NCBI GenBank assembly: GCA_958295695.1
Contig: OY282363.1
Coordinates: 1,802,225 to 1,866,224 of the forward strand
DNA: 64,000 bases
From: an uncultured Alphaproteobacteria bacterium
GTDB taxonomy: Bacteria; Pseudomonadota; Alphaproteobacteria; SP197
Reading direction: 5' to 3'
The position numbers were made by a program, and so were the translations under genes. Of the stretch, positions 8,505 to 60,179 are shown piece after piece; within the stretch, counting starts at the first letter, position 1; each line of letters opens with the position of its first letter. The notes beneath the pieces are model-generated. The model worked only from the letters and a program-made list of their open reading frames with translations, was not told the DNA's origin and did no database searches.

Positions 8505-10642
8505 AGTTTCAGGACCAGTTGCTTTTCATTCTCTTCCAGCCACAGCCGGGCGGCGGGGGTCAGCATCATCGTTCGGCAGGGCCGGTCCGCGATCGTGGCG
8601 GTCTCGGCCGTATACTCGCCGAAGGCGGCTCGCGGCTCGACCGCGTCGCCCGGGCCGCACTGGAACAGCCGCTCGCCCGTGGAATCGTAGGCGGAGGCCT
8701 GGCCCTTTATCAGCAGTTGCAAACCCTTCCGCGCCTCGCCTGTCGAGACGAGGGCCTCGCCGGTGTCGTATTCGCGAAGCTCCAGCCAGTCCCGGAGCTC
8801 ATCGACCAGGTCCTCGAAAAGGGCCTGCCTGTCGAGATGGCGCTCCATATCGCCGGCCACGCGCTCCAGCAGCGTGTCGCCCAGGCCCCTGTCTTCGTCC
8901 GGGTCCGACCGCCACGCCGCGAGGACGATGTCCTCGCAGCGCTCCAGGGCGCGGTCCGCGTCCGGCTCGAACAGCAGGTTGTCATGAACGGGACGGGGAA
9001 GGTTGCGCTCCAGTCCGTCCTCGAGTTTCTCCGGAACGGCGCTCAGAACCACCCGCGCTCCGACGGCGTGCGCGGCGTGCATGAACCTGCACAGGGCGTT
9101 GACGGCCGAGAAATCGAAACCGGAGACGCCGCCGAAATCCAGCAGGATGCAGGCCGGCCGCGGGGTGTTGTCCAGGAACTGCTTGAGGCGATCGAGCAGG
9201 GGGCCGACGCCGCCGAAGAAAATATAGCCGCGCAGCCGGCAAGCCTGTATCCGCTCTCCCTCCGCCCGCAGGAGGGCTCGATCGGGAATGGGACGGATCT
9301 TGTTGCTGCGACGCTCGCGGGCGGTGAAGCTGGCCTCGATCGAGTCCACGCGGCTGAGGCGGACGGCGAAGAAAACCATGGCGATCGCTATTCCGACGCC
9401 CACCCCCTCGAGAAAGCCCAAGGACACGGTGGTGACGGCGATCAGCAGGAGAATCGCGTATTCCGTCCAAGGCAACCGCCCGCGTCTATTCACGACCCAT
9501 TCATACAGTAGACTGAAGCCGATGAAGAACAACGACCCGGCGATGAGCGGCATGGGGACAAATTTCAGGACCGAGTCGCCCAAAGGAACGACGGAGACTA
9601 TCACCAGAGCGGTCACGGCGCCGGTCAGCCGTGTTCTCGCCCCGAACCTGTCGCTCAATATCGAGGATGGAATGATCACGCCACTTGGGCCGCCGCCCAG
9701 GCCGGCGATCACACCGGCCCCACCCGCCGCCCTGAATTCCCTGTTCCACTCCAACTCCACGTTCGTAGCCAGTTCAAGGGCGCTCAAATACACAGCCACG
9801 GCGATCAGGGTCACCACGATCAGGACCAGTATGTTGGGAATCTGCGCGGTTACCGCGGCCCAATCCACATGCGCCAGATCGCCGGGTTGAAAGGGAGGCC
9901 AAAGGCCTCCTTCCGCCGTGCCGGCGAATAGCAGGCCCGCCGCCCTAGCCTCGTCTCCAGAGACGCCGAGGAAGGCAAAGACCAGATGATAGAGCATGGC
10001 GATGAGCAGGAAACTCGCCGGCAGAATGAAATGTCTATTCCAACGTTTCGTGGCAAGGAACAGGCCGAGACCGTAGGCCACGCCCGGACCCCATCTCCAC
10101 AGCAAGTCGGGCTCCAGGAGCGAGGGAAGCGTTCGCCAGTCCCGCGCGATCCCCATCAGTGACAGGGCGTCCATGCACAGGACCGCCCCCGCCCCGGCGA
10201 TGAACCCGCCCGCCACGGAATAGGGGATGAACCGGATCAGGTTGGCGAGCCGGAAATGTCCGACCGCCAGAAAGCAAACGCCCGTCGCCACCGAACCGAC
10301 GATCACGACCGTGACCGCGGTCATGAAACGCTCGAGCGCATCGCCTTCCACGCCGATCGTGGAGCCGATCTCGACCAACACCACCCCGGAAGGCGCCGCT
10401 ATCATCGCGACCGCGCCACGGTAACCGCTGGTGAGGGCGATCCACAGACAGACGACGAAACCGCCGAACACCACCATGATCGTGCCTTGGGAGAGAAATG
10501 GCGCCGATGGGCCTGAAAAAATGAGGGCGCCCATGGAAATCAGGTATGCCAAGCCGGTCGCGCCCATGACCAGGCCGACCGACAGCGCCGGGAACATTTT
10601 CGCCGAGAGCATGTCGGCTCGGAGTTCGGATATCAGGTTCAT
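8441..10642 (-). CDS. SulP-family anion transporter with STAS and cyclic nucleotide-binding domains
   Basis: A 733-residue inner-membrane protein. Residues 1 to about 440 form the multi-helix SulP transport core (GGGPSGVIIPSSILSDRFGA lies in its later part). A STAS domain follows near residue 497 (ACILLDFGGVSGFDFSAVNA). From about 610 to 715 there is a CAP_ED-type cyclic nucleotide-binding fold (YDTGEALVSTGEARKGLQLL). SulP proteins move sulfate, bicarbonate or dicarboxylates; the added domain suggests gating by a nucleotide. The conserved phosphate-binding arginine of cNMP domains is not obvious, so ligand binding is unproven. I start at the ATG at 10642; a 30-residue upstream extension is Arg-rich and unlike the family. 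Confidence 0.85.
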   Translation of the reverse strand: MNLISELRADMLSAKMFPALSVGLVMGATGLAYLISMGALIFSGPSAPFLSQGTIMVVFGGFVVCLWIALTSGYRGAVAMIAAPSGVVLVEIGSTIGVEGDALERFMTAVTVVIVGSVATGVCFLAVGHFRLANLIRFIPYSVAGGFIAGAGAVLCMDALSLMGIARDWRTLPSLLEPDLLWRWGPGVAYGLGLFLATKRWNRHFILPASFLLIAMLYHLVFAFLGVSGDEARAAGLLFAGTAEGGLWPPFQPGDLAHVDWAAVTAQIPNILVLIVVTLIAVAVYLSALELATNVELEWNREFRAAGGAGVIAGLGGGPSGVIIPSSILSDRFGARTRLTGAVTALVIVSVVPLGDSVLKFVPMPLIAGSLFFIGFSLLYEWVVNRRGRLPWTEYAILLLIAVTTVSLGFLEGVGVGIAIAMVFFAVRLSRVDSIEASFTARERRSNKIRPIPDRALLRAEGERIQACRLRGYIFFGGVGPLLDRLKQFLDNTPRPACILLDFGGVSGFDFSAVNALCRFMHAAHAVGARVVLSAVPEKLEDGLERNLPRPVHDNLLFEPDADRALERCEDIVLAAWRSDPDEDRGLGDTLLERVAGDMERHLDRQALFEDLVDELRDWLELREYDTGEALVSTGEARKGLQLLIKGQASAYDSTGERLFQCGPGDAVEPRAAFGEYTAETATIADRPCRTMMLTPAARLWLEENEKQLVLKLYRYLLTLESRGDGYSRGPNS

Positions 10643-12732: not shown

Positions 12733-14141
12733 TGGACGACCGCTCGACCGGGGTCGCGCGGGCGGCCTGGGCCGCCGTCGAGCCCGAGGCGCGGGCCATG
12801 TTCCGGCGGATCTGGGAGACGCCGGAACTCGGCATGATGGAATACGAGGCCGAGGCGGCGCTCTCGGCCTGGCTGTCCGATCACGGCTTCGCCGTCACGC
12901 GGGGCGTCTGCGGCCTGCCCACGGCCTTCAAGGCGGTCCGGTCGAGCGGCGAAGCGGGACCCGTGCTGGGCTTCATGGCCGAATACGACGCGCTGCCGGG
13001 CCAGGGCAACCGGCTCGAGCCTCTCAGGGCGCCCGACGGCAAGCGCGCCGGCCACGCCTGCGGCCACAACATCATCGCCGGCGCCGCCGCCGGCGGCGCC
13101 ATCGCGGCCCGCCACACCATGGAGGAGCTGGGCCTGGAAGGGACGATCGTCTGCCTCGGCGCCCCGGCGGAGGAGATCCTCTGGGGCAAGATCGCGCTGC
13201 TGCGGGCCGGCGCCTTCGACGGCATCGACGTGCTGTTCGCGAACCACGCCGACTACCAGACCGGCGCGGTCTCGCGGCCTTGCCTCTCCTGCATTTCCAC
13301 GGAGTTCGTGTTCTCCGGCGTGTCCGGCCATGGCGGCTCGCGCCGGTCCCGGAACGCGCTCGATGCGGCGGAGCTCTTCGTCCAGTCGATGGAGCGTCTG
13401 CGCGCCCACCAGTTCAACGACGCGGTCATCGGTCACGTCCTGCGTTTCGCGGGCTACATGCCGTCGATCACGCCCGACGAGACCCGCCTGTGGCTGACCG
13501 TGCGGCACGAGTGCTTCGAGCGCGCCGAAGAGGTCTACAACGGAATCCTGCCCATCGCCCACGACGCGGCGAAGTACACGGCGACGAGCGTCAAGGAGAT
13601 GCTGATCTCGGCCTCGCGCGGCTATCTCCCGAACCACGCCGTCAATCGGGTCCTTTTCCGCAACATGGAAGCGGTCGGTCCTCCCGCCTGGGACGACGCG
13701 GACGAGACCTTCATGCGGCGGCTCGCCGAAAGCCGCGGCCCGGGGCGCGACTTCGCGTGGGACCGGGGCCTCGGCTTCCACACCGAAGGCTGCGACCCCT
13801 TTGGCCAGGATGACGGCGAAGCGAGCTGGCGCATCCCGCTCGCGCGCGTCAACTGGTCGAATCCGCTGGGCGTGCTCTTCCACAACTGGGCGCTGACCGC
13901 CGCGTCGGGACACGAAAGCCAGTTCAAGGGCGGATGTTTCGCCGGGGAGTCCATGGCGCTCGCGGCGGTCGACCTGCTCGGCGATCCGTCCCGGATCGCG
14001 GCGGCCAAGGACGAGCTGGCGGATCGCGTCGGCGGACGCGCGCTCTCGCCGCCCCGTTGCGGCGGGTTCGACGCGATGACCCGGAATCCGGAGAGCTTCT
14101 GGGACGGCGTCTGGCTGAGCGACGACAGGCTGGGTCCGTGA
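12732..14141 (+). CDS. M20-family amidohydrolase (AbgB/aminobenzoyl-glutamate hydrolase-like)
   Basis: A 469-residue dinuclear metal hydrolase. The metal site is visible as EYDALPG (about 84-90), ACGHN with H112, the AEE pair near 147-148 and the late H in a GHESQFKG stretch. The dimerisation domain starts near FSGVSGHGG. Length and the GHACGHN motif fit the amidohydrolase group that cleaves N-acyl or aminobenzoyl-glutamate-type amides. It follows two SDR genes with a one-base overlap and is followed by a CobW-type GTPase with a GTGA overlap. That chaperone could supply its metal; this is inference from gene order. Confidence 0.85.
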   Translation: MDDRSTGVARAAWAAVEPEARAMFRRIWETPELGMMEYEAEAALSAWLSDHGFAVTRGVCGLPTAFKAVRSSGEAGPVLGFMAEYDALPGQGNRLEPLRAPDGKRAGHACGHNIIAGAAAGGAIAARHTMEELGLEGTIVCLGAPAEEILWGKIALLRAGAFDGIDVLFANHADYQTGAVSRPCLSCISTEFVFSGVSGHGGSRRSRNALDAAELFVQSMERLRAHQFNDAVIGHVLRFAGYMPSITPDETRLWLTVRHECFERAEEVYNGILPIAHDAAKYTATSVKEMLISASRGYLPNHAVNRVLFRNMEAVGPPAWDDADETFMRRLAESRGPGRDFAWDRGLGFHTEGCDPFGQDDGEASWRIPLARVNWSNPLGVLFHNWALTAASGHESQFKGGCFAGESMALAAVDLLGDPSRIAAAKDELADRVGGRALSPPRCGGFDAMTRNPESFWDGVWLSDDRLGP

Positions 14142-15130
14142 CCCGGCTCGCGACCGACGCCGAACCGATTCCGGTCACCGTGCTGACCGGTTTTCTGGGA
14201 AGCGGCAAGACGACGCTGCTGCGCCATCTTCTCGGCCATCCCGGCATGGGCGAGACCGCCGTGATCGTGAACGAGTTCGGCGAGATCGGGCTCGACCACG
14301 CGCTCATCGAGACTTCGGACGAGGACACGCTCCTGCTCGACAACGGCTGCCTGTGCTGCGGGCTGAGGGGCGACCTCGTGGACACCCTGATGTCGCTCCT
14401 CGAGCGGCGCGAGCGGGGCGAGACGCCGGCATTCGGGCGAGTCGCGATCGAGACCACCGGGCTGGCCGATCCGGTCCCCGTGCTCCAGACCTTCCGTACC
14501 GACCCGCTGCGCCTGTCCCGGTTCGAGTTCGAGGGCCTCGTGACCTGCTGGGATGCGGTCAACGGCGCACGGTCGGCCGCGAACCACCGTGAGGCGGCGC
14601 GTCAGGTCGCGCTGGCCGACACGGCGATCGTCACGAAGACCGATCTCGGCGACGGCGCCGCGGCGCGCGCCGAGGTCGCGCGGCTCAACGCCCGCGCCGT
14701 TTTGAGGGAAGCGGTTCACGGCGCGGTCGACCCCGCCGACGTTCTGAACGGCGCCGCGCGCCTTGCGGCGCCGGAGACCGATGGCGGCGAGCCGCATCGT
14801 CACGGCCGCCGTCGCCACGACCGGATCGTGTCGGTCTCGGCGTTCGGAAACAGGGCGCTGGACTGGGACCGTGTCCGACGCGCCGTCGCCGGCCTCGTCG
14901 AATCCCACGGCGACCGTCTCCTGCGTCTCAAGGGCCTGTTGAAGGTCGAGGGCCGGGAAGGGCCCGTCGGCGTCGACGGCGTCCAGCACCTGTTCCACCG
15001 GCCGCGGCCTCTGGAGGCGTGGCCGCCCGGACTCGACCGGCCGTTCCTGGTCGGCGTCGCCGAGGGCGCGGCCCGCGAGGAGTTGCGTGGCTGGCTTCTC
15101 GCGATCCTGTCGCCCGGCGACGGCGTTTAG
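14138..15130 (+). CDS. CobW/COG0523-family metal-chaperone GTPase
   Basis: A 330-residue G3E GTPase. The P-loop GFLGSGKT is at residues 18-25, the family's metal-binding CxCC appears as CLCC at 71-74, the ETTGLADP switch region follows, and the guanine motif is TKTD near 166. A histidine/arginine stretch (HRHGRRRHDR) near 221 probably binds metal. A CobW C-terminal domain ends the protein (FHRPRPLEAWP). Such proteins deliver zinc or cobalt to client enzymes. The GTG start overlaps the stop of the M20 hydrolase gene, making that metalloenzyme the obvious candidate client. No zinc-uptake repressor site was recognised upstream. Confidence 0.88.
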   Translation: MTRLATDAEPIPVTVLTGFLGSGKTTLLRHLLGHPGMGETAVIVNEFGEIGLDHALIETSDEDTLLLDNGCLCCGLRGDLVDTLMSLLERRERGETPAFGRVAIETTGLADPVPVLQTFRTDPLRLSRFEFEGLVTCWDAVNGARSAANHREAARQVALADTAIVTKTDLGDGAAARAEVARLNARAVLREAVHGAVDPADVLNGAARLAAPETDGGEPHRHGRRRHDRIVSVSAFGNRALDWDRVRRAVAGLVESHGDRLLRLKGLLKVEGREGPVGVDGVQHLFHRPRPLEAWPPGLDRPFLVGVAEGAAREELRGWLLAILSPGDGV

Positions 15131-15324: not shown

Positions 15325-18300
15325 TCAGGAGCGTCGAAGCGTCCGGTTGGTTGCTTCGGCAAGCAACCGGTCCCGCACCATCTCGATTTGGGCGATGACC
15401 GGGGCGATATCTTCATAGCACCGCCAAGCTGGTATGCGCAGGACGGTCCAGCCGAGACGGTCAAGCAGGCGATCTCGGGTGACGTCTTGTCGCCGTTGCC
15501 GTCTCCGGACGTCGAGGTGCTGGTCGCCGTCTACCTCGATGTTCAGTTTGATCCCTCGGTCCATCAGCGCGAAGTCCAGCTCGTATCCCTGCACGTTGAG
15601 CTTGGCATAGGGAGCAAGGCCCCCGAGCTGCATCGCGTTGAGCAGCAGTCGCTCCGATCCGCTGGCGAGATGGTAGTTGGCATGAGGCGGTGCGTCGTCC
15701 TCGTTCTGGTCAACCTCGTCGCACAGATAGGCGCGCAGAGAGGCTAGGGTCGAGCTTCCCAATGCGCCGACGGACGGGTGGCCGAACACGATCAACGCCC
15801 GGCGGGCGCGGCTGACCGCGACGTTCAGGAGGTTTTTTCCCTTTCCACCCAGCGAACGCCGCTCTTCGACATTTCGGGAGACAGAACGGCGGAAATGATG
15901 ATCGCGTCGCGTTCGTCTCCTTGGAGGCGGTGCGCGGTTCCGCATACGAAGTCGGCTTCATCCAGAACAGGCTTGCCGAACCGCCTTTCTGCCAGAGATC
16001 CGACGAGTTGCGCTTGTGCGGCGAACGGAGTAACGACGCCGACGCTCAAGCCGGATTTCAGCAGGACGCCAAGCTGTTCCACCGCCCGCTCTGCTTCGGC
16101 GCGGTTGCGCCAGCTTCTTCCGGAGCGAGGTCGTTCCGCCGCGCCTTCGACGTCCCACCACCCGATCGCGCGTTCTTTCTCGTTGACATTCGTCAGCACC
16201 GTCAGTTCGTCGTTGTAGAATGTTCGATTGAACCAGCGGGCGATGTGCGGATGGCAGCGGTAATGCTCGTTGAGGAGGATCGGGATGTCGGGCCTCGCTG
16301 CGAACTCGCACGCCAGATAGGCCGAACCGGCCTTGTGATGGATGCCTTGCCGGCGCAGGTCTCCGTCGTCGAACCCGGCCTCCTCGGCGATCCTTTGCAA
16401 GAGCCGGTCGCCGAGGGGAACGATCGGCTGCAGCTGGCAGGGGTCTCCCACCACCGCCAGACGCTTGGCGCGGTAGGCCAGCGGCAGCACGGCCGCCAGA
16501 GTGCACTGGCTGGCCTCATCGACGATCACGAGATCGAACAGCCCAGCCTCAAGGGGGAAGTTCCCGTTCGCCGACAACGCCGTGCACGCCCAGCCGCGCA
16601 AGTCATGAAGAACGCTGCCGACGAGGTTCGGAAACGCTTTACCGGCGGGGGCTCCACCGAAAACGCCCAGTCGGCCTTCGCCGGCGCGAATGCGCGCCGC
16701 CGTGTCCGTCCGGATCGCCCCGAGGCTGGCTTCCGTCCATTTCCGGTCTTCCTCCGGGATGCTGACCGTGGGATCGCCCACATCCCCCTCAAGTTGTCGA
16801 TACTCATTTCGTCCGGTTTCCAATTCGCGGATCAGCGCTGATTGGCGCCAGTCGAGCTGGGCCCAGGCTGCGATCCGTTTCAGGGAAACGGTCTCGACGC
16901 AGCCGAGCCGCCGGCGCAAGCGCCGCGCCCGGAAACGCGGGAAGAACCACGTTCGAGACAATCGGTCGGCTCGCCGCTCGATCCGGTCGGAATCGGGGAG
17001 AAGGGCGGGAGAGTTCGCGTCAGGCCAGAGCTCTCGCGCGGCCGTTTTCAGCTTCTCCCTGATTGGCTCCAGATTCTCCGCGAGCAACAACAACTTGTCT
17101 TCCAACTTGTCTAGCGACGTCAGCTTCTTCATTAACCGTTCGCGTTCGTCGGTAATTCGTGTCATTTTGGCACGCTCTTGAGCCTGATTACCGACATGCT
17201 TTTTCGCCTGATTCAAAGCAACAATGATGCGTCCCGGAACTTGCTCTCGGGCGTCACGATTTCCTGTCCGTATCAGCAGTCCGGCGCATATGTTTTGTCG
17301 CGCTCGCTCGGTAGCGACGTCGACCGCGGCATTGTTTGTCGAAGTCACGAGGACTTTGTCGCCGTCCAGCCATGCGTTTGTCACTGCGTTCACAACGAGT
17401 TGCGTCTTCCCGGTGCCAGGCGGGCCGGTCACAATCGTCAGCGGTTTCCTACGAAGGTGTTCGAGCGTTTCCTCCTGTGACTGGCTGCACGGAAGTGGCG
17501 CGGCGAGCGGGCCGGACGGAGAGCGTTTGTTTTGCTTCGGAGCGAATCCGCTGGAAACGAGATGAACCGCCGCCGTATCCACCCAATCCTTTCTGGTCTG
17601 GAGTTGTCTCAGTTCTGCAAGAAGGCTGGCGCTGAACACGGATTTCTCGGCTAAGACCGATATGGCGGCGTTATAAACGCCTTCCCCGCAGCGAACACGA
17701 GGTTCGAGCGCCCTCGCGTCGAATGGCGAGAGCACGGGCAACCCGAGTAGTCCGGCGGTTGCCCCGGCAAGATCTGCGAACGCTTTGGCATCGTCGAACG
17801 AGGGACCGTTGCCGAGAAGATCGCCGATTTCTTCGGCGGTCGAGGGATCGAAGATGCCGCCGGCTGTGATAGCCAGGTTGAACTCGGGATCACCGGTCGC
17901 ATGGAGTCGCCACACCTTGGCGGGAGATTGCTCCGGTTCGGTCTGGACAACAAAGAGAGGAGCAACCTTGATCTTGCGGTCATGGTCTTTCATGACGACG
18001 GTTGGCCAGCCGTAGAGGATTGATCGCCTGTCCCGTGATGGAGCGAGAGCGTTCAACCTTCCGGCGAGCTCGCCGGATACGGGTATCGAGTCGCTGTGTC
18101 CGACCACCAGTTTCTCTTCTCCGGTATGGGAGAACCAAAGGGTGTTCTCCTCTTTGTGGAGAACCAGAGATTGGGTCGCCTCCGCTTCGATGCACCGTCG
18201 CACGTATTCGCACAATTGCCGCCATGGATCCCGCGGCGCCGGCGTCGTTTGGTCCGAAGAGTTCCGATCCGCGGCGCAGGCATCGCATATGACGTCTTTC

Positions 18301-18392
18301 GTCGATGGCGACCAGTGCGCCCGCGTTCCCGCGTCCAGCCCCGCTCCGCACGACCGGCAACGGCCGGCGTACCGCAGAGAGATGACCTGCAT
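15325..18392 (-). CDS. Zinc-ribbon, SF1 (Dna2/Upf1-like) helicase, PD-(D/E)XK nuclease; interrupted by a one-base frameshift
   Basis: The gene encodes a zinc ribbon (C12, C15, C36, C39), an SF1 helicase with Walker A GPPGTGKTQ near residue 322, a coiled coil near 395-460, Walker B VIVDEASQ near 622 and GTAHRLQGDERD. The frame stops at 15825 just after RWVEREKTS. The missing continuation NLLNVAVSRARRAL, and a nuclease domain of the MTES_1575/DUF559 type (YELDFAL, IEVDGDQHLD), lie in the neighbouring frame down to 15325. Adding one A to the six-A run at 15835-15840 would join them into exactly 1,022 residues. I start at the ATG at 18392; a TTG 33 bases earlier is possible. GC is visibly lower than in neighbours. 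The architecture suggests nucleic-acid defence or repair. Confidence 0.75.
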
Positions 18393-18449
18393 GTCTCTGG
18401 AGAGTTCCACGGCTTCCCTTTGCAACGCACAACAGGTCCGCGTTGGCGG

Positions 18450-19409
18450 CTACACGATACGTCCCAGCCGGACGGCCGTCTTGCCCTTCGCCGGCTCGCG
18501 CGCGGGCATGACCATGACGCAGTCGGGGTAGGGGGTGCGGATATCCTTGCCGCCGTCGGCGCCGATCAACGCGCCTTCCCTCGGCACGACCTCGAAACCC
18601 TCGAAGGCGCGGGCGAAGGCGAAGTCGTCGGTCTCGACGGTGACGGGACCGGACACCTCGATGAAGAGCTGCTCCCCGTCGTCGGTCTCGCCCAGGTGCT
18701 CGGCGAGAAAGGCGGGGTCGACGGCGTCGTGGCAACGCAGGAAGCGCAGGCTCGTTTCGATCGCGACCCGCGCCGCCGCTTCGTGGAAGTGGTAGCCGCA
18801 CTCGACGAGGCAGGACGCCCGCCCGGTCGAGGGATCGTCGAACCGGACGTAGTCTCGGAGCCGTTTGCCCGCGGCGTGGCCGGCGTCGATCACCACGTGA
18901 CGGGGCGCGCCGAGCGCCGCGGCGAGGGCGCGGCCCTCGGCCCGGACGCCGGCGAGCAGCATGGGCGCCTGCGGCAGGTCGACCGAGTGGATGTCGAGCA
19001 GGCGGTCCACCGTGTCGATGACGGGCCTGATCTCCCGGGCGCGCGCGAGCTCGACGCTCTCGCGCCCGACGTCGAGCGTCTCCTCGTCCCACAGCCGGTT
19101 GAAGTCCTCCTCGACGAAGCGGGAGAGATAGGGATGGCTGGCGTCGAAGGTCTCGTAGGCCGCGACGTTGGCGAAGCCGAGCGTGAGCTTCCCGCGCGTC
19201 GGCCGCACGTCACGCTCGAAGAGGAAGCGCAGGGCGTGCGCGCCGCAGACTTCGTTGCCATGGGTCAGGGCGTTGATCATGAGGTGCGCGCCGGGCTCTC
19301 CGCTGTCGAAGGTCGTGACGTAGTCGACGCCCGTGTTGCCCGCCCTGTAGGGCGCGATGTCGCAGGGCGTCAGGTGGACGCCATGGGGCGCCGCGGCGCT
19401 TTCGGTCAT
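18450..19409 (-). CDS. Succinylglutamate desuccinylase/aspartoacylase family hydrolase
   Basis: A 319-residue zinc hydrolase of the M14-like AstE/AspA family. Zinc ligands are H50 and E53 in LTHGNEVCG and H141 in LLDIHSVD; a catalytic-type glutamate sits in LVECGYHF. The C-terminal beta domain (residues about 230-319) is present. Enzymes of this family remove acyl groups from N-acyl amino acids; substrate is not clear. It follows the NAD kinase gene by 19 bases on the same strand and precedes the helicase gene by about 57 bases. Confidence 0.85.
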   Translation of the reverse strand: MTESAAAPHGVHLTPCDIAPYRAGNTGVDYVTTFDSGEPGAHLMINALTHGNEVCGAHALRFLFERDVRPTRGKLTLGFANVAAYETFDASHPYLSRFVEEDFNRLWDEETLDVGRESVELARAREIRPVIDTVDRLLDIHSVDLPQAPMLLAGVRAEGRALAAALGAPRHVVIDAGHAAGKRLRDYVRFDDPSTGRASCLVECGYHFHEAAARVAIETSLRFLRCHDAVDPAFLAEHLGETDDGEQLFIEVSGPVTVETDDFAFARAFEGFEVVPREGALIGADGGKDIRTPYPDCVMVMPAREPAKGKTAVRLGRIV

Positions 19410-19428: not shown

Positions 19429-20196
19429 TCAGGTCTGGAACTGCTCCATCAGGATGCGTTCCTCGAGGTCGTGCTCGGCGTCGAACAGCAGGCGCGCCGC
19501 GCGGGTCTCGTCGGTTTCGACCGCGACACGGACCGCGTCGCGCACCTCGGTGGAGTCGGCCGACGCGCTCACCGGACGCTTCCCGTGCTCCAGGACCTCG
19601 AAGCCGACCCTGGTGCGCTCGGGCAGGATGGCGCCGCGCCAGCGGCGCGGCCGGAAGGCGCTGATCGGCGTCAATGCGAGGCTGCGCGAGCCGATCGGAA
19701 GGATGGGGCCGTGGGCCGAGAGGTTGTAGGCCGTGCTGCCGGCGGCGGTGGACACCAGCACGCCGTCGCACATCAGCTCCTTCATGCGCACGACGCCGTC
19801 GACCGTGACGCGGATCTTCGCGGTCTGCCGTGTCTCGCGAAAGAGCGCGACCTCGTTGATCGCCAGGGCCTCCCCGACCGCGCCGTGGATGTCGGTCGTG
19901 GTCACGCGCAGCGGGTTGAGCGCGGTCGTCTCGGCCGCCTCGATGCGCTCGACGAGGCCGTCCTCCTCGTAGGCGTTCATCAGGAACCCTACCGAGCCCC
20001 GGTTCATGCCGTAGACCGCGACCTCCTCGCCCAGGCGCCGGCGCAACGTCTCCAGCATGAATCCGTCGCCGCCCAGAGCCACGATCACGTCGGCTCCGGC
20101 CGTGTCCCGGACGCCGTAACGCTCCTCCAGCCGCGCCTTGGCGCGACGGGCCTTCCGGGCGTCGGACGCCACGAACGCGATCTTCGGTCTGGCCAC
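19429..20196 (-). CDS. nadK: NAD kinase
   Basis: A 255-residue NAD kinase, which phosphorylates NAD to NADP with ATP. The GGDGFML motif near residues 38-44 is the ATP/NAD site, and [17 protein letters not shown] is the second family signature. I chose the GTG at 20196 because the protein then begins [10 protein letters not shown], the usual first beta strand; a longer frame upstream runs through the divergent gene's leader. The sequence ends with an acidic tail typical of alphaproteobacterial NadK. The gene faces away from the isomerase gene at 20330. Confidence 0.9.
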
Positions 20197-20329
20197 GCGG
20201 GTCTCCGCTCGAAAGGGCCGCGCGACATGTATAATGGCGAACGGCCGGGCGGGGAACGACCGTTCGCCATTGCCCGCCGCCCGCCCGCGGGCGCGGGTCC
20301 CCTCCCGCCGTTGTCCGGAGCCGCGTCCG

Positions 20330-21199
20330 ATGCCCCGCTTCGCCGCCAACCTCTCCACCCTGTTCGGCGAGTCGCCCTTCCTGGACCGCTTCGCCGCCGC
20401 GAAGGACGCCGGGTTCGCGGCCGTCGAGGTGCAGGACGCCTACGACACGCCCGCCGGGGAGGTGAGGGCGGCGCTGGACGACGCGGGCCTGGAGCTGGTG
20501 CTGGCCAACGCGCCCTCCGGCGGCGCGGCCGCGGGCCACGGCGGTCTCGCCGCGCTGCCGGGCCGCGAGCGGGAGTTCGCCGAGACCGTGGACACCGCGC
20601 TCGCCTGGGCGGCGGTCGCCGGCTGCCCCAGGCTCCACGTCATGTCGGGCGTCCTTCCCGCCGGCGCCGGCGTCGGCGACTGCGAGGAGGTCATGGTCTC
20701 CAACCTGAGGACGGCCGCGAAGCGGGCCGCGGCCCAGGGCGCGACGCTTCTGGTCGAACCCATCAACACGCGCGACGCGCCGGGCTACATCGTGAGCCGC
20801 CAGCGCCAGGCGCGGCGCATCGTCGAGGCCGTCGGCGCGGACAACGTGCGCGTCCAGTTCGATTTCTACCACTGCCAGGTCATGGAGGGCGATCTCGCGC
20901 GCCGCTTCGCCGAGCAACTCCCGTTGATCGGCCACGTCCAGATTTCCGACAACCCCGGCCGCCACGAGCCCGGCTCCGGCGAGATCGCTTGGCCCTACCT
21001 CTTCGAGCTGATCGACCGGAGCGGCTACGACGGCTGGGTCGGCGCGGAATACACTCCAAAGGGAGAAACGGCCGCCGGCCTGGGGTGGCTCGCGGCGGCG
21101 AGGGGTTGGCGTGGCCCCGTTATCCGCGATGGGGTTTCCTTGGCCACGACCTACCCGGACCGCAACAGGCGCACCGCCGCGTCGCGTTCGAAGAGATAG
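20330..21199 (+). CDS. Hydroxypyruvate isomerase-family TIM-barrel protein
   Basis: A 289-residue sugar-phosphate-isomerase-like TIM barrel. Recognisable strands include [69 protein letters not shown] and GAEYTPKG. These carry the metal-binding E, D, H and E of the Hyi family, which interconverts hydroxypyruvate and tartronate semialdehyde. The start at 20330 fits the family's first strand. Its last 49 bases overlap the end of recG on the other strand, so the C-terminal tail (residues after about 270, Arg-rich) may be an extension by read-through. Confidence 0.85.
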
Positions 21200-56931: not shown

Positions 56932-58164
56932 ATGCGTGGATTGTCGTTGCCGTTGCTCTTCGGGATGTTGTGCTCGATGGCTCCGGCCGCGGCGGCCCAG
57001 GAACTGGAGTCCTTGCAGGTATACGCAGGCTCGCTGAGCGAAACGCCTGAAGACCTGCCGCTGCAATTGCCGGTGGTCGCTCTGAGTCCCGCCTACGACG
57101 ATGAGACGACATCCTACACGGCGAACCTGCCATACTCGGCGGACGGAATCTCGCTGGCGGTCGAAGTAGTCGGATACGGTCATGAGGTTGTCGGGGTCGA
57201 AGGCAAGGCCGCCGACGGCGCCGAGCTGGAATTCCGGGCCTGGGACTACTCGAAGCCTTTCGGGCGGAAGGGCCACATTATCTCGTTCGATGGTCTGCCG
57301 GATGGCGACACCACCATTCGTATCGCGGTAGAAAGTCCCTGGGGTCGCACGATCTATTCGGTCGTCGCGAGCCGCGCCGCCACGGCGTCCAGCAGCGCAA
57401 GTCTCACCCGGCTCGAGCTGGCGCCCGCGGGGGAAGACTCGGGCGCGTATACGCTCACGCCCGAGTTCGGAGCCGCCACGACGCGGTACGCGGCCGACAT
57501 TCCCGCCAGCGCGGACGATCTCGTCGTGAACACGGCGACGGAGCATGCCGGGAGCGTGGTGGAGGTGCATGGCGTGGCGGCGGATGGACAGCCGCTGGCG
57601 CTGGAGGGCTCGCGCGTATCGGGCCTCGTCCCGGGTTCGAACACGCTGGAGATCGCGGTGACCGCCGAAGACGGAACGACGACATCCGCCTACACCGTGG
57701 CGGTGACGCGTCCGGTCCCCGACGATGACGCCACGCTGCACGACCTCCAGCTGTCGGAAGGTCCACCTTCGACGGGCTCCGGCCTCTTCGATGTGTTTTC
57801 TGCGACAATGGATGTGTTTTTTGCGACAAACGGCGAGTCGCCGGAAGGCGGCGTGGCGCCGTCGCCCGCGTTCGACCCGGGAGTGGCTTTCTACGCGGTT
57901 GCCGTGGGTGAAGCCGAGCTTACCATCCGTTCGCGCGTGGCCGGCACATCGGACGTGGCTGTATCGGGCCGTTCGCCCGCGGGGGCGGAATTGTCCGTCG
58001 GCAACATTTTCTCCTTCGAGGACATCTACAGAGACAATGTGTCTGTCGGTTCGTTTCTGAACGCCACGGTATCGGGTCTCTCAACCGGTGAGAACACCAT
58101 AGAAATCGTGGTTACCGCCGAGGACGGAACGACGCGATCCTACACGTTGATCGTGACGAGATAA
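56932..58164 (+). CDS. Secreted protein with three cadherin-like beta-sandwich repeats
   Basis: A 410-residue exported protein: signal peptide about 1-21 (LSLPLLFGMLCSMAPAAAAQ) and three beta-sandwich modules of the Cadherin-like/DUF type, each ending in a TAEDGTTxSYTxxVTR motif (VTAEDGTTTSAYTVAVTR near 250, VTAEDGTTRSYTLIVTR at the end; first copy degenerate, ESPWGRTIYSVVASR). AGGAGA lies before the ATG. Near residue 290 it carries the tandem heptad DVFSATMDVFFATN, encoded by an imperfect 21-base duplication. It is probably an outer-surface or periplasmic adhesion protein. It is somewhat less GC-rich than host genes. Confidence 0.78.
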   Translation: MRGLSLPLLFGMLCSMAPAAAAQELESLQVYAGSLSETPEDLPLQLPVVALSPAYDDETTSYTANLPYSADGISLAVEVVGYGHEVVGVEGKAADGAELEFRAWDYSKPFGRKGHIISFDGLPDGDTTIRIAVESPWGRTIYSVVASRAATASSSASLTRLELAPAGEDSGAYTLTPEFGAATTRYAADIPASADDLVVNTATEHAGSVVEVHGVAADGQPLALEGSRVSGLVPGSNTLEIAVTAEDGTTTSAYTVAVTRPVPDDDATLHDLQLSEGPPSTGSGLFDVFSATMDVFFATNGESPEGGVAPSPAFDPGVAFYAVAVGEAELTIRSRVAGTSDVAVSGRSPAGAELSVGNIFSFEDIYRDNVSVGSFLNATVSGLSTGENTIEIVVTAEDGTTRSYTLIVTR

Positions 58165-58722
58165 GAAAGAAAACGGCATGACGTATTCGGGCTACGAGAC
58201 CTTCAACTGAAGGGATTGAAACCGGTCGACGGTCCCAGAGCCCGATCCATAAGTGTTGAGTGGTTCCGCCATGCGGTATTCCGAGTTGGTTGCGATACCA
58301 AGCTTGGAGGGGCTCATCTCTTGGAGCGGGAGCACCCGGAAGAAACACAGGCGCGTCACCGGGGATTTTGAAAGTGACGTGATAGGCGGGGAATGGGCGC
58401 CGATCGTTGCGCATTGGGGCCGATGTCCAGGACCGCGACAGTGCGTCGCCGGCGATCCTGGAGATGTTTGAGAAGGCCCCGGCCGCGTTCGGTTCCGTCC
58501 TTATCGTCGAATTCGAGTTCGAATAGCCGGCCGGTTTCGGCGTTTGTCCGAGAAACGACCGGCCGAGCCGACTCGAACGCTCGGCGTCCACCAGGGAAAG
58601 TCCTTCGATACGGTTTTTCGTATCCGCTCAAGATGATGGAGTGAGTATTCGTACGCCCAAACCCTATCCCACCCCGAGGCGTCGCCGAAAACGGCGTATC
58701 GAAGGGCGGCGGTCTGGTCGCT
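58165..58722. other. Gap of about 560 bases without a convincing gene
   Basis: Competing frames on both strands lack family resemblance. GC is lower than in host genes. The minus-strand frame over about 58356-58640 contains LFELEFDDKDGTERGRGLLK, which looks protein-like but has no start or recognised domain. A single CTGAAGGGATTGAAAC at 58206-58221 resembles the end of a CRISPR repeat but is not repeated nearby. This stretch is probably part of the insert between the ligase and PdeM fragments. Confidence 0.4.
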
Positions 58723-59400
58723 TCAAAACAACCCGATCCCTTTCCGATTATCGATGATGTTTTTCTTGAACTCATACTTCTTGTAAAAATTGGGATAATC
58801 GTTCCTGAAGCGCTCTTCGGCATTCGTTTGATCGTCAACGATTTCATATTGTAAAGCTTCTTCAAACACGCTGTACTTCCATTGCCCGAAATCAAAAACT
58901 TTCGGACGAACGGTTTCATCGATATCGATAACAATCTTTCCCACATAGTTGATTTTGTTTTCTTCAATATTCATCTCCAGAGGAAGGCTGGCCTCTTTCC
59001 CCGACACCACAAATATCCAATACCAATATCTGCCTTCGGCCAGATGGGCGACAATGAAGCCGTTGCCTTCCTTCTTTACCGGAATCGAGCGTTTTAGTCC
59101 AAATGTCGGTTGAAAGAGCAACTCTCCATCGACATTGGACATTGTCTCCATAAGGAGAATTCCATAACCGTCTTTCAAATCGGAGTCGTCATCGTGCACG
59201 TTATCCAAAACGTTCTCGTATAAAATAGAATCGAGATGGTCAATGCCGCTACAAGCGCCAATTTGAATTGAACATACGAGGATCAACATGAGGAAAGACA
59301 AGGTTCGAGAATTCGATTTCCGTTCGGCGCATGGCGCTATCGCCCGCGCGCCGCCGCGGCCGAGAGACGCCGCGTTTGGTGTGTCGAAGCTGGAGTTCAT
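58723..59400 (-). CDS. Low-GC lipoprotein of unknown function
   Basis: About 225 residues with a lipoprotein-type segment RTLSFLMLILVCSIQIGACSG (lipobox cysteine in IGAC). A body of about 175 residues rich in Asp/Glu/Asn/Lys/Tyr follows (GYGILLMETMSNVDG; HLAEGRYWYWIF; FDFGQWKYSVFEEA). Codon use is strikingly AT-rich compared with everything around, indicating recent transfer. The start is uncertain: the N-terminal part before the lipobox is GC-rich host-like sequence, so the native start appears lost and the ATG at 59400 may be accidental. Family not recognised. Confidence 0.6.
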   Translation of the reverse strand: MNSSFDTPNAASLGRGGARAIAPCAERKSNSRTLSFLMLILVCSIQIGACSGIDHLDSILYENVLDNVHDDDSDLKDGYGILLMETMSNVDGELLFQPTFGLKRSIPVKKEGNGFIVAHLAEGRYWYWIFVVSGKEASLPLEMNIEENKINYVGKIVIDIDETVRPKVFDFGQWKYSVFEEALQYEIVDDQTNAEERFRNDYPNFYKKYEFKKNIIDNRKGIGLF

Positions 59401-59517
59401 GAGTGATATACCCCTGTCTCGCCGCATGGCTGTGCTGGCGCCGTGTTCATCCAGACCATTCTATACCCCTTGCCATCGGCATGCCAGAACCGGCCGCGCC
59501 ATGCCGGCCGGAGCGGT

Positions 59518-59745
59518 GCGCCCGTCCGCGACGAGACAACCCGGTGGATCGCGCCGGCCTTCGGAGCCTACGCGGGCGGCCTCGATGTCCACGAGGACGC
59601 CATCCGCGGCCTGTTCCCCGGCGGGTTTGACGTCTGGCTCCTCGGCCGCGATCATGTCCGGAGGGGCGAGCGGGAACGGCTGTCGGCGCCCCGACGCCTC
59701 GCGCGGGCGACCGGGCCGTCCATGGCGAATGAAGAGGCGCCGTGA
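59518..59745 (+). pseudogene. C-terminal fragment of PdeM (ligase-associated DNA damage response endonuclease)
   Basis: The frame reads TTRWIAPAFGAYAGGLDVHE, DAIRGLFPGGFDVWLLGRDH and V, matching the C-terminus of PdeM-type metallophosphoesterases (xLPAFGAYxGGLxVxDxAxxxLFxxGFxxxxLGRDRV). The metal-binding N-terminal half (DLHLEK, GDxxH, GNHD) is missing. Its stop overlaps the GTG of the VOC gene, so the two were once translationally coupled. Together with the ligase fragment at 56679-56915 it brackets an inserted segment. Confidence 0.7.
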
Positions 59746-60179
59746 CCGTCAAGAGCAACCCCGACGAATGGTGGATGTCCACGGGAGACTACGCCCGGCG
59801 GCTCAAGGGGCTGACCGTCAACCTCCTCTACAGGGACGTGATGGCGGCCGTGCCCTTCCACACCGAAGTGCTGGGCGCCGACCTGGAGTACGCCTGCGTC
59901 GATTTCGCGTCCTTCGGCTTCGACGGCTGCGTCTGGATGCTGCACGCCGACCACACCTACGACCGCCACCCTCTCCATCGCGTTCTGAACGCCGGCGCGG
60001 ACCGCGGCGTCGGCGCGGAATTGCGCCTCCACGGCCGCGACCCGGACGAGGCCTGCGCGGCCGCCGACAGGCTGGGGTTCCGGGTTCTGGAGCGCGCGAC
60101 CTCGAAGGGCCACGGTACGCGCGAAGCCTTCATTCTCGACACCGAGGCCTATCTCTGGGTGCCCGACATTCCGGTCTGA
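59742..60179 (+). CDS. VOC (glyoxalase/bleomycin-resistance) superfamily protein
   Basis: A 145-residue single VOC fold: RRLKGLTVNLLYRDVMAAVPFHTEVLG is the first beta-alpha-beta unit and EAFILDTEAYLWVPD the last strand with the metal-type glutamate. HADHTYDRHPLHRVLNAG supplies histidines in the middle. The GTG at 59742 overlaps the stop of the PdeM fragment; the ATG at 59775 is an alternative. It is intact although its upstream neighbour is not, so its promoter may now be different. Confidence 0.75.
   Translation: MTVKSNPDEWWMSTGDYARRLKGLTVNLLYRDVMAAVPFHTEVLGADLEYACVDFASFGFDGCVWMLHADHTYDRHPLHRVLNAGADRGVGAELRLHGRDPDEACAAADRLGFRVLERATSKGHGTREAFILDTEAYLWVPDIPV

Follow-up and report, generated by a model that had tools for sequence, protein, structure and literature searches.

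Does the abrupt end of a helicase gene at a short run of As reflect a real mutation, an error of the assembly or a switch between two proteins? In the window (the whole 64,000-nucleotide stretch of alphaproteobacterial DNA analysed here), an open reading frame on the minus strand runs from an ATG at 18392 to a TGA at 15827–15825 and comprises 855 sense codons, or 866 if an alternative TTG start at 18425 is used. The −1 frame of the same strand stays open between 15945 and 15325, and the two frames meet at a run of six As (15833–15838, minus strand), the gene’s sole homopolymer of six or more, with the stop of the first frame lying just past it. Reading across the run gives a joined product of 1,022 residues, and apart from the junction the gene contains no stop or frame change. 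A preliminary description of the locus had correctly placed the stop at 15825 and six As at the frame change, but counted 852 codons instead of 855 and put the run at 15835–15840 instead of 15833–15838. Its account of a resumption in the −1 frame, giving 1,022 residues, agrees with our finding that the two parts match an intact homologue end to end and that helicase motif VI falls at the junction.

The 5′ part (15825–18392, minus strand) matches Pfam families PF13086 (AAA_11, 90.9 bits) and PF13087 (AAA_12, 70.3 bits) and carries Walker A (GPPGTGKT), Walker B (DEAS), motif III (GDPCQLQP) and motif V, ending in EREKTS and the stop, ahead of motif VI. The 3′ part in the −1 frame (15325–15832, minus strand) begins with motif VI (NLLNVAVSRARRAL) and continues into a PD-(D/E)XK nuclease of the MTES_1575/DUF559 kind (ELDF...IEVDGDQH...RDRLLDRLGW), matched by PF18741 (MTES_1575; 41.1 bits against a cut-off of 38.2) and also, over cut-off, by DUF559. 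With PF13086, PF13087 and PF18741 all over their cut-offs, the pairing of an SF1 helicase with an MTES_1575-type nuclease, as first described, holds. At the N-terminus, a CxxC...CxxC zinc-ribbon-like motif can be seen by eye in the split gene and in two of its homologues (L022 and L024, introduced below), is incomplete in a third (L023), and has no Pfam match. In the nuclease, residues D940, E953, D955 and H959 are identical in the three sequences compared, and the xDGDxH motif and acidic residues are preserved across all three close sequences.

The closest solved structures for the helicase are UPF1, NAM7 and SEN1 (PDB 2xzo, 8rd3 and 5mzn), with Walker A, Walker B, motif III and the motif VI region aligning with UPF1 (E 7e-21). 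The present protein differs from these SF1 helicases in its nuclease fusion, and also in an extended N-terminal region and an inserted helical segment, neither of which has a match. When the protein is aligned with UPF1, the junction falls immediately before motif VI (LNVAVSRARRALIVFG in the split gene, LNVALTRARYGVIIVG in UPF1). The stop at 15825 thus parts motifs I–V from motif VI and the nuclease, and the motifs do not stand in one continuous frame. The arginine of motif VI is required for ATP hydrolysis in SF1 helicases. The 855-residue product, without motif VI and nuclease, would therefore not be a working tail-less helicase.

This bears directly on a suggestion of the preliminary description, that transcriptional slippage on the A-run controls whether the nuclease tail is made. 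Since the truncated protein, lacking motif VI, would have no helicase activity, the proposed switch loses its rationale. Comparison with homologues points the same way. The closest, L022 in a Gammaproteobacteria metagenome-assembled genome (MAG; JAJEAD010000011.1), encodes 1,047 residues with 65% identity over residues 2–1003 and aligns end to end. It shares the domain order of the split gene and is likewise a lone gene amid metabolic genes, but it is intact and codes the junction as GAG AGG AAC, without an A-run. A second, L023 in an Alphaproteobacteria MAG, is also intact (1,100 residues, ~50% identity), can likewise be aligned over its whole length, though less closely, and reads ACG AAG AAT at this point. 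The earlier suggestion to look for the A-run among homologues gave a clear answer: none of 16, these two included, carries the run at this position, the longest stretch being four As, which rules out a conserved slippage site.

Programmed or incidental recoding on the A-run, by transcriptional slippage or −1 ribosomal frameshifting, to yield both short and full-length proteins, is in our assessment very improbable. The frame does change right at the run, constraint acts on the sequence to either side, and a precedent exists in Citrobacter rodentium tssM, a broken gene shown experimentally to be rescued by slippage at 11 As (PMC4256274). In both genes the run lies shortly ahead of a premature stop, but tssM has 11 As and demonstrated slippage, against six As and no sign of slippage here. 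Bacterial transcriptional slippage has been reported at runs of more than seven As (PMC3711429), and six fall short of this. The codons at the site (AGG GAA AAA ACC) place the run in the wrong phase for an X_XXY_YYZ heptamer, and the RNA downstream of the run folds no better than shuffled sequences (z = +0.77), so that −1 ribosomal frameshifting, having neither an in-phase heptamer nor an RNA stimulator here, is not supported either. We give equally little credence to a lineage-specific variant, in which low-level slippage or −1 frameshifting on the six As would rescue a little full-length protein and so hold a potentially toxic nuclease at trace level. Separate translation of the nuclease part from the ATG at 15945 is unlikely as well: ~37 out-of-frame residues would come first, and no clear ribosome site is visible by eye.

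Least probable of all is phase variation, with replication slippage altering the length of the run and turning the gene on and off within the population. The break at a homopolymer would suit it, and certain DNA-metabolism genes are known to be phase-variable (PMC3711429), but six As lie below the 7-nt minimum of that study and the run is not conserved among homologues. What the locus holds is a known kind of helicase–nuclease with one frame-breaking indel, real or artefactual, and a switch is unsupported.

How the indel arose was approached through constraint and through the rest of the genome. Against L022, pN/pS is 0.37 after the break, within the range of 0.25–0.52 found before it. Since the lesion is single and constraint persists downstream, the break is either recent or artificial; the equality of constraint on its two sides marks it, if real, as recent. 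An assembly or consensus error, in which the run was miscalled by one and the cell has an ordinary intact helicase–nuclease gene, would look identical to a real loss of one base. The indel sits in the gene’s longest homopolymer, a second lesion is absent, constraint downstream is full, and in a study of prokaryotic frameshifts, singletons with full-length matches are expected to be sequencing errors (PMC3711429). We regard such an error as a serious contender, though short of an even chance, and it would make the gene one more candidate defence helicase–nuclease.

Against a miscall, the genome is a near-complete assembly in two contigs, and its other homopolymers are mostly well behaved. We scanned 1.6 Mb of the same genome, sampled as stretches, with a codon model whose frameshift flag has a sensitivity of ~69% (55/80 simulated deletions) and many of whose flags are ordinary gene ends. 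Inside coding segments, at least 159 homopolymers of 6–8 had equal frame on both sides. There were 35 runs of at least six at frame changes on one strand; viewed overall rather than singly, most of these look like ordinary gene junctions. Two frameshifts were confirmed by Pfam domains divided over two frames, both without a homopolymer: one near 10584 in a sulfatase gene (L038:10025–11556, plus strand), the other near 13099 in a GMC oxidoreductase gene (L127:11917–13400, minus strand). Possible frameshifts, each with a Pfam match on one side only, were seen in a D12 adenine methyltransferase gene (L092:2238–3016, minus strand; junction near 2533), a RecX-like gene (L138, near 5243) and a TauD-like gene (L105, near 4137 and 3689). 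In none of these five confirmed or possible cases (L038, L127, L092, L138 and L105) does the junction coincide with a homopolymer of at least six. Because at least 159 runs stay in frame and the five other confirmed or possible frameshifts lie off such homopolymers, run-length miscalls are not rife in this assembly, and this pattern in the sampled stretches leads us to lean slightly towards a genuine mutation.

The gene is foreign to its surroundings. Its GC content is 62%, against ~70% around it, its third-position GC is 70–77%, against a threshold of 80% for training on host genes, and the host codon model scored most of it as non-coding. Upstream, an AstE/AspA-like gene (18450–19409, minus strand) forms with an NAD kinase gene (19429–20358) a block conserved in the genus; downstream, a CobW GTPase gene (14141–15130, plus strand) forms a second conserved block with an M20 peptidase gene and two SDR genes. 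The AspA–NAD kinase and SDR–SDR–M20–CobW blocks lie apart in relatives, and here the split gene stands between them. It is a solitary acquisition, placed where synteny breaks. Atypical codon usage, lower GC, the breakpoint and homologues in other phyla together bear out the horizontal transfer proposed earlier. The immediate neighbours are metabolic and no defence island was seen around the gene; no second copy of it was found in the host genome. Elsewhere in the window, at 58001–60000, GC falls to 52–61% and the codon model finds scant host-like coding, possibly a further acquired stretch.

We put a probability of roughly 0.53 on the reading that this is an acquired, single-copy UPF1-like SF1 helicase–PD-(D/E)XK (MTES_1575) gene that recently came to be one base short in its A-run and is most likely inactive. 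On this reading a helicase–nuclease fusion gene, acquired horizontally and present in one copy, would recently have dropped a single base from the one long run of As that it has, bringing a stop codon immediately ahead of motif VI. At most, a protein of 855 residues would be left; lacking the nuclease as well as the arginine motif of the ATPase, it would most likely be inactive. We infer that the lesion is present in the living cell and that activity has been lost there. In its intact form the protein probably translocates on nucleic acid and cuts it, plausibly against invading DNA.

An antiviral or defence role of this sort, suggested by sequence likeness, is plausible. The architecture had been likened to that of defence genes, and the part of this that stands is a similarity, confined to the core, to the anti-phage helicases Mokosh (MkoA/MkoC), Hhe and ProA, in the helicase for all three and also in the nuclease region for Hhe and ProA. 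PADLOC models gave up to 188–203 bits for MkoC/MkoA, no cut-offs being given for Mokosh, and NCBIfam models on the intact homologues gave 125–143 bits for ProA and 61–70 bits for Hhe. Curated scores, however, lie far under their cut-offs (ProA 97–143 bits against 1500, Hhe 61–70 against 2000), the Hhe and ProA models are 1,797–1,903 positions long against 1,022 residues here, and the DUF4011 domain, a further difference from this comparison set, was not found in the split gene’s product.

The subfamily is rare and patchy, a pattern of mobile genes. Searches of 385 genomes of the class and 398 of the phylum for close homologues yielded distant members only (~38–40% over the core) or none; in viral contigs no close homologue was confirmed, and plasmids and phages gave distant core matches alone (24–34% identity). 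In favour of true inactivation, a clearly decayed copy occurs in another host, an Acidobacteria MAG (L024), where residues 1–79 and 477–734 only are retained, at 63% identity, the middle having been lost (remnant at L024:6001–7088). Across hosts, represented by MAGs of Alphaproteobacteria, Gammaproteobacteria and Acidobacteria, the gene thus occurs intact, freshly broken and fully decayed, the picture one would anticipate for accessory genes that carry a cost. The attractive claim of recoding is removed as unsupported, and a rare mobile helicase–nuclease subfamily is documented. Around the intact L023 homologue (L023:1074–5332) we observed genes for an rve integrase, an AAA_22 ATPase, an AAA_25 protein and a Toprim protein, surroundings with the look of a transposon or of a mobilisable element. 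A distant homologue, L027 (G375:C115:17049–18269), has a single in-frame TGA within an open stretch and is possibly another broken copy.
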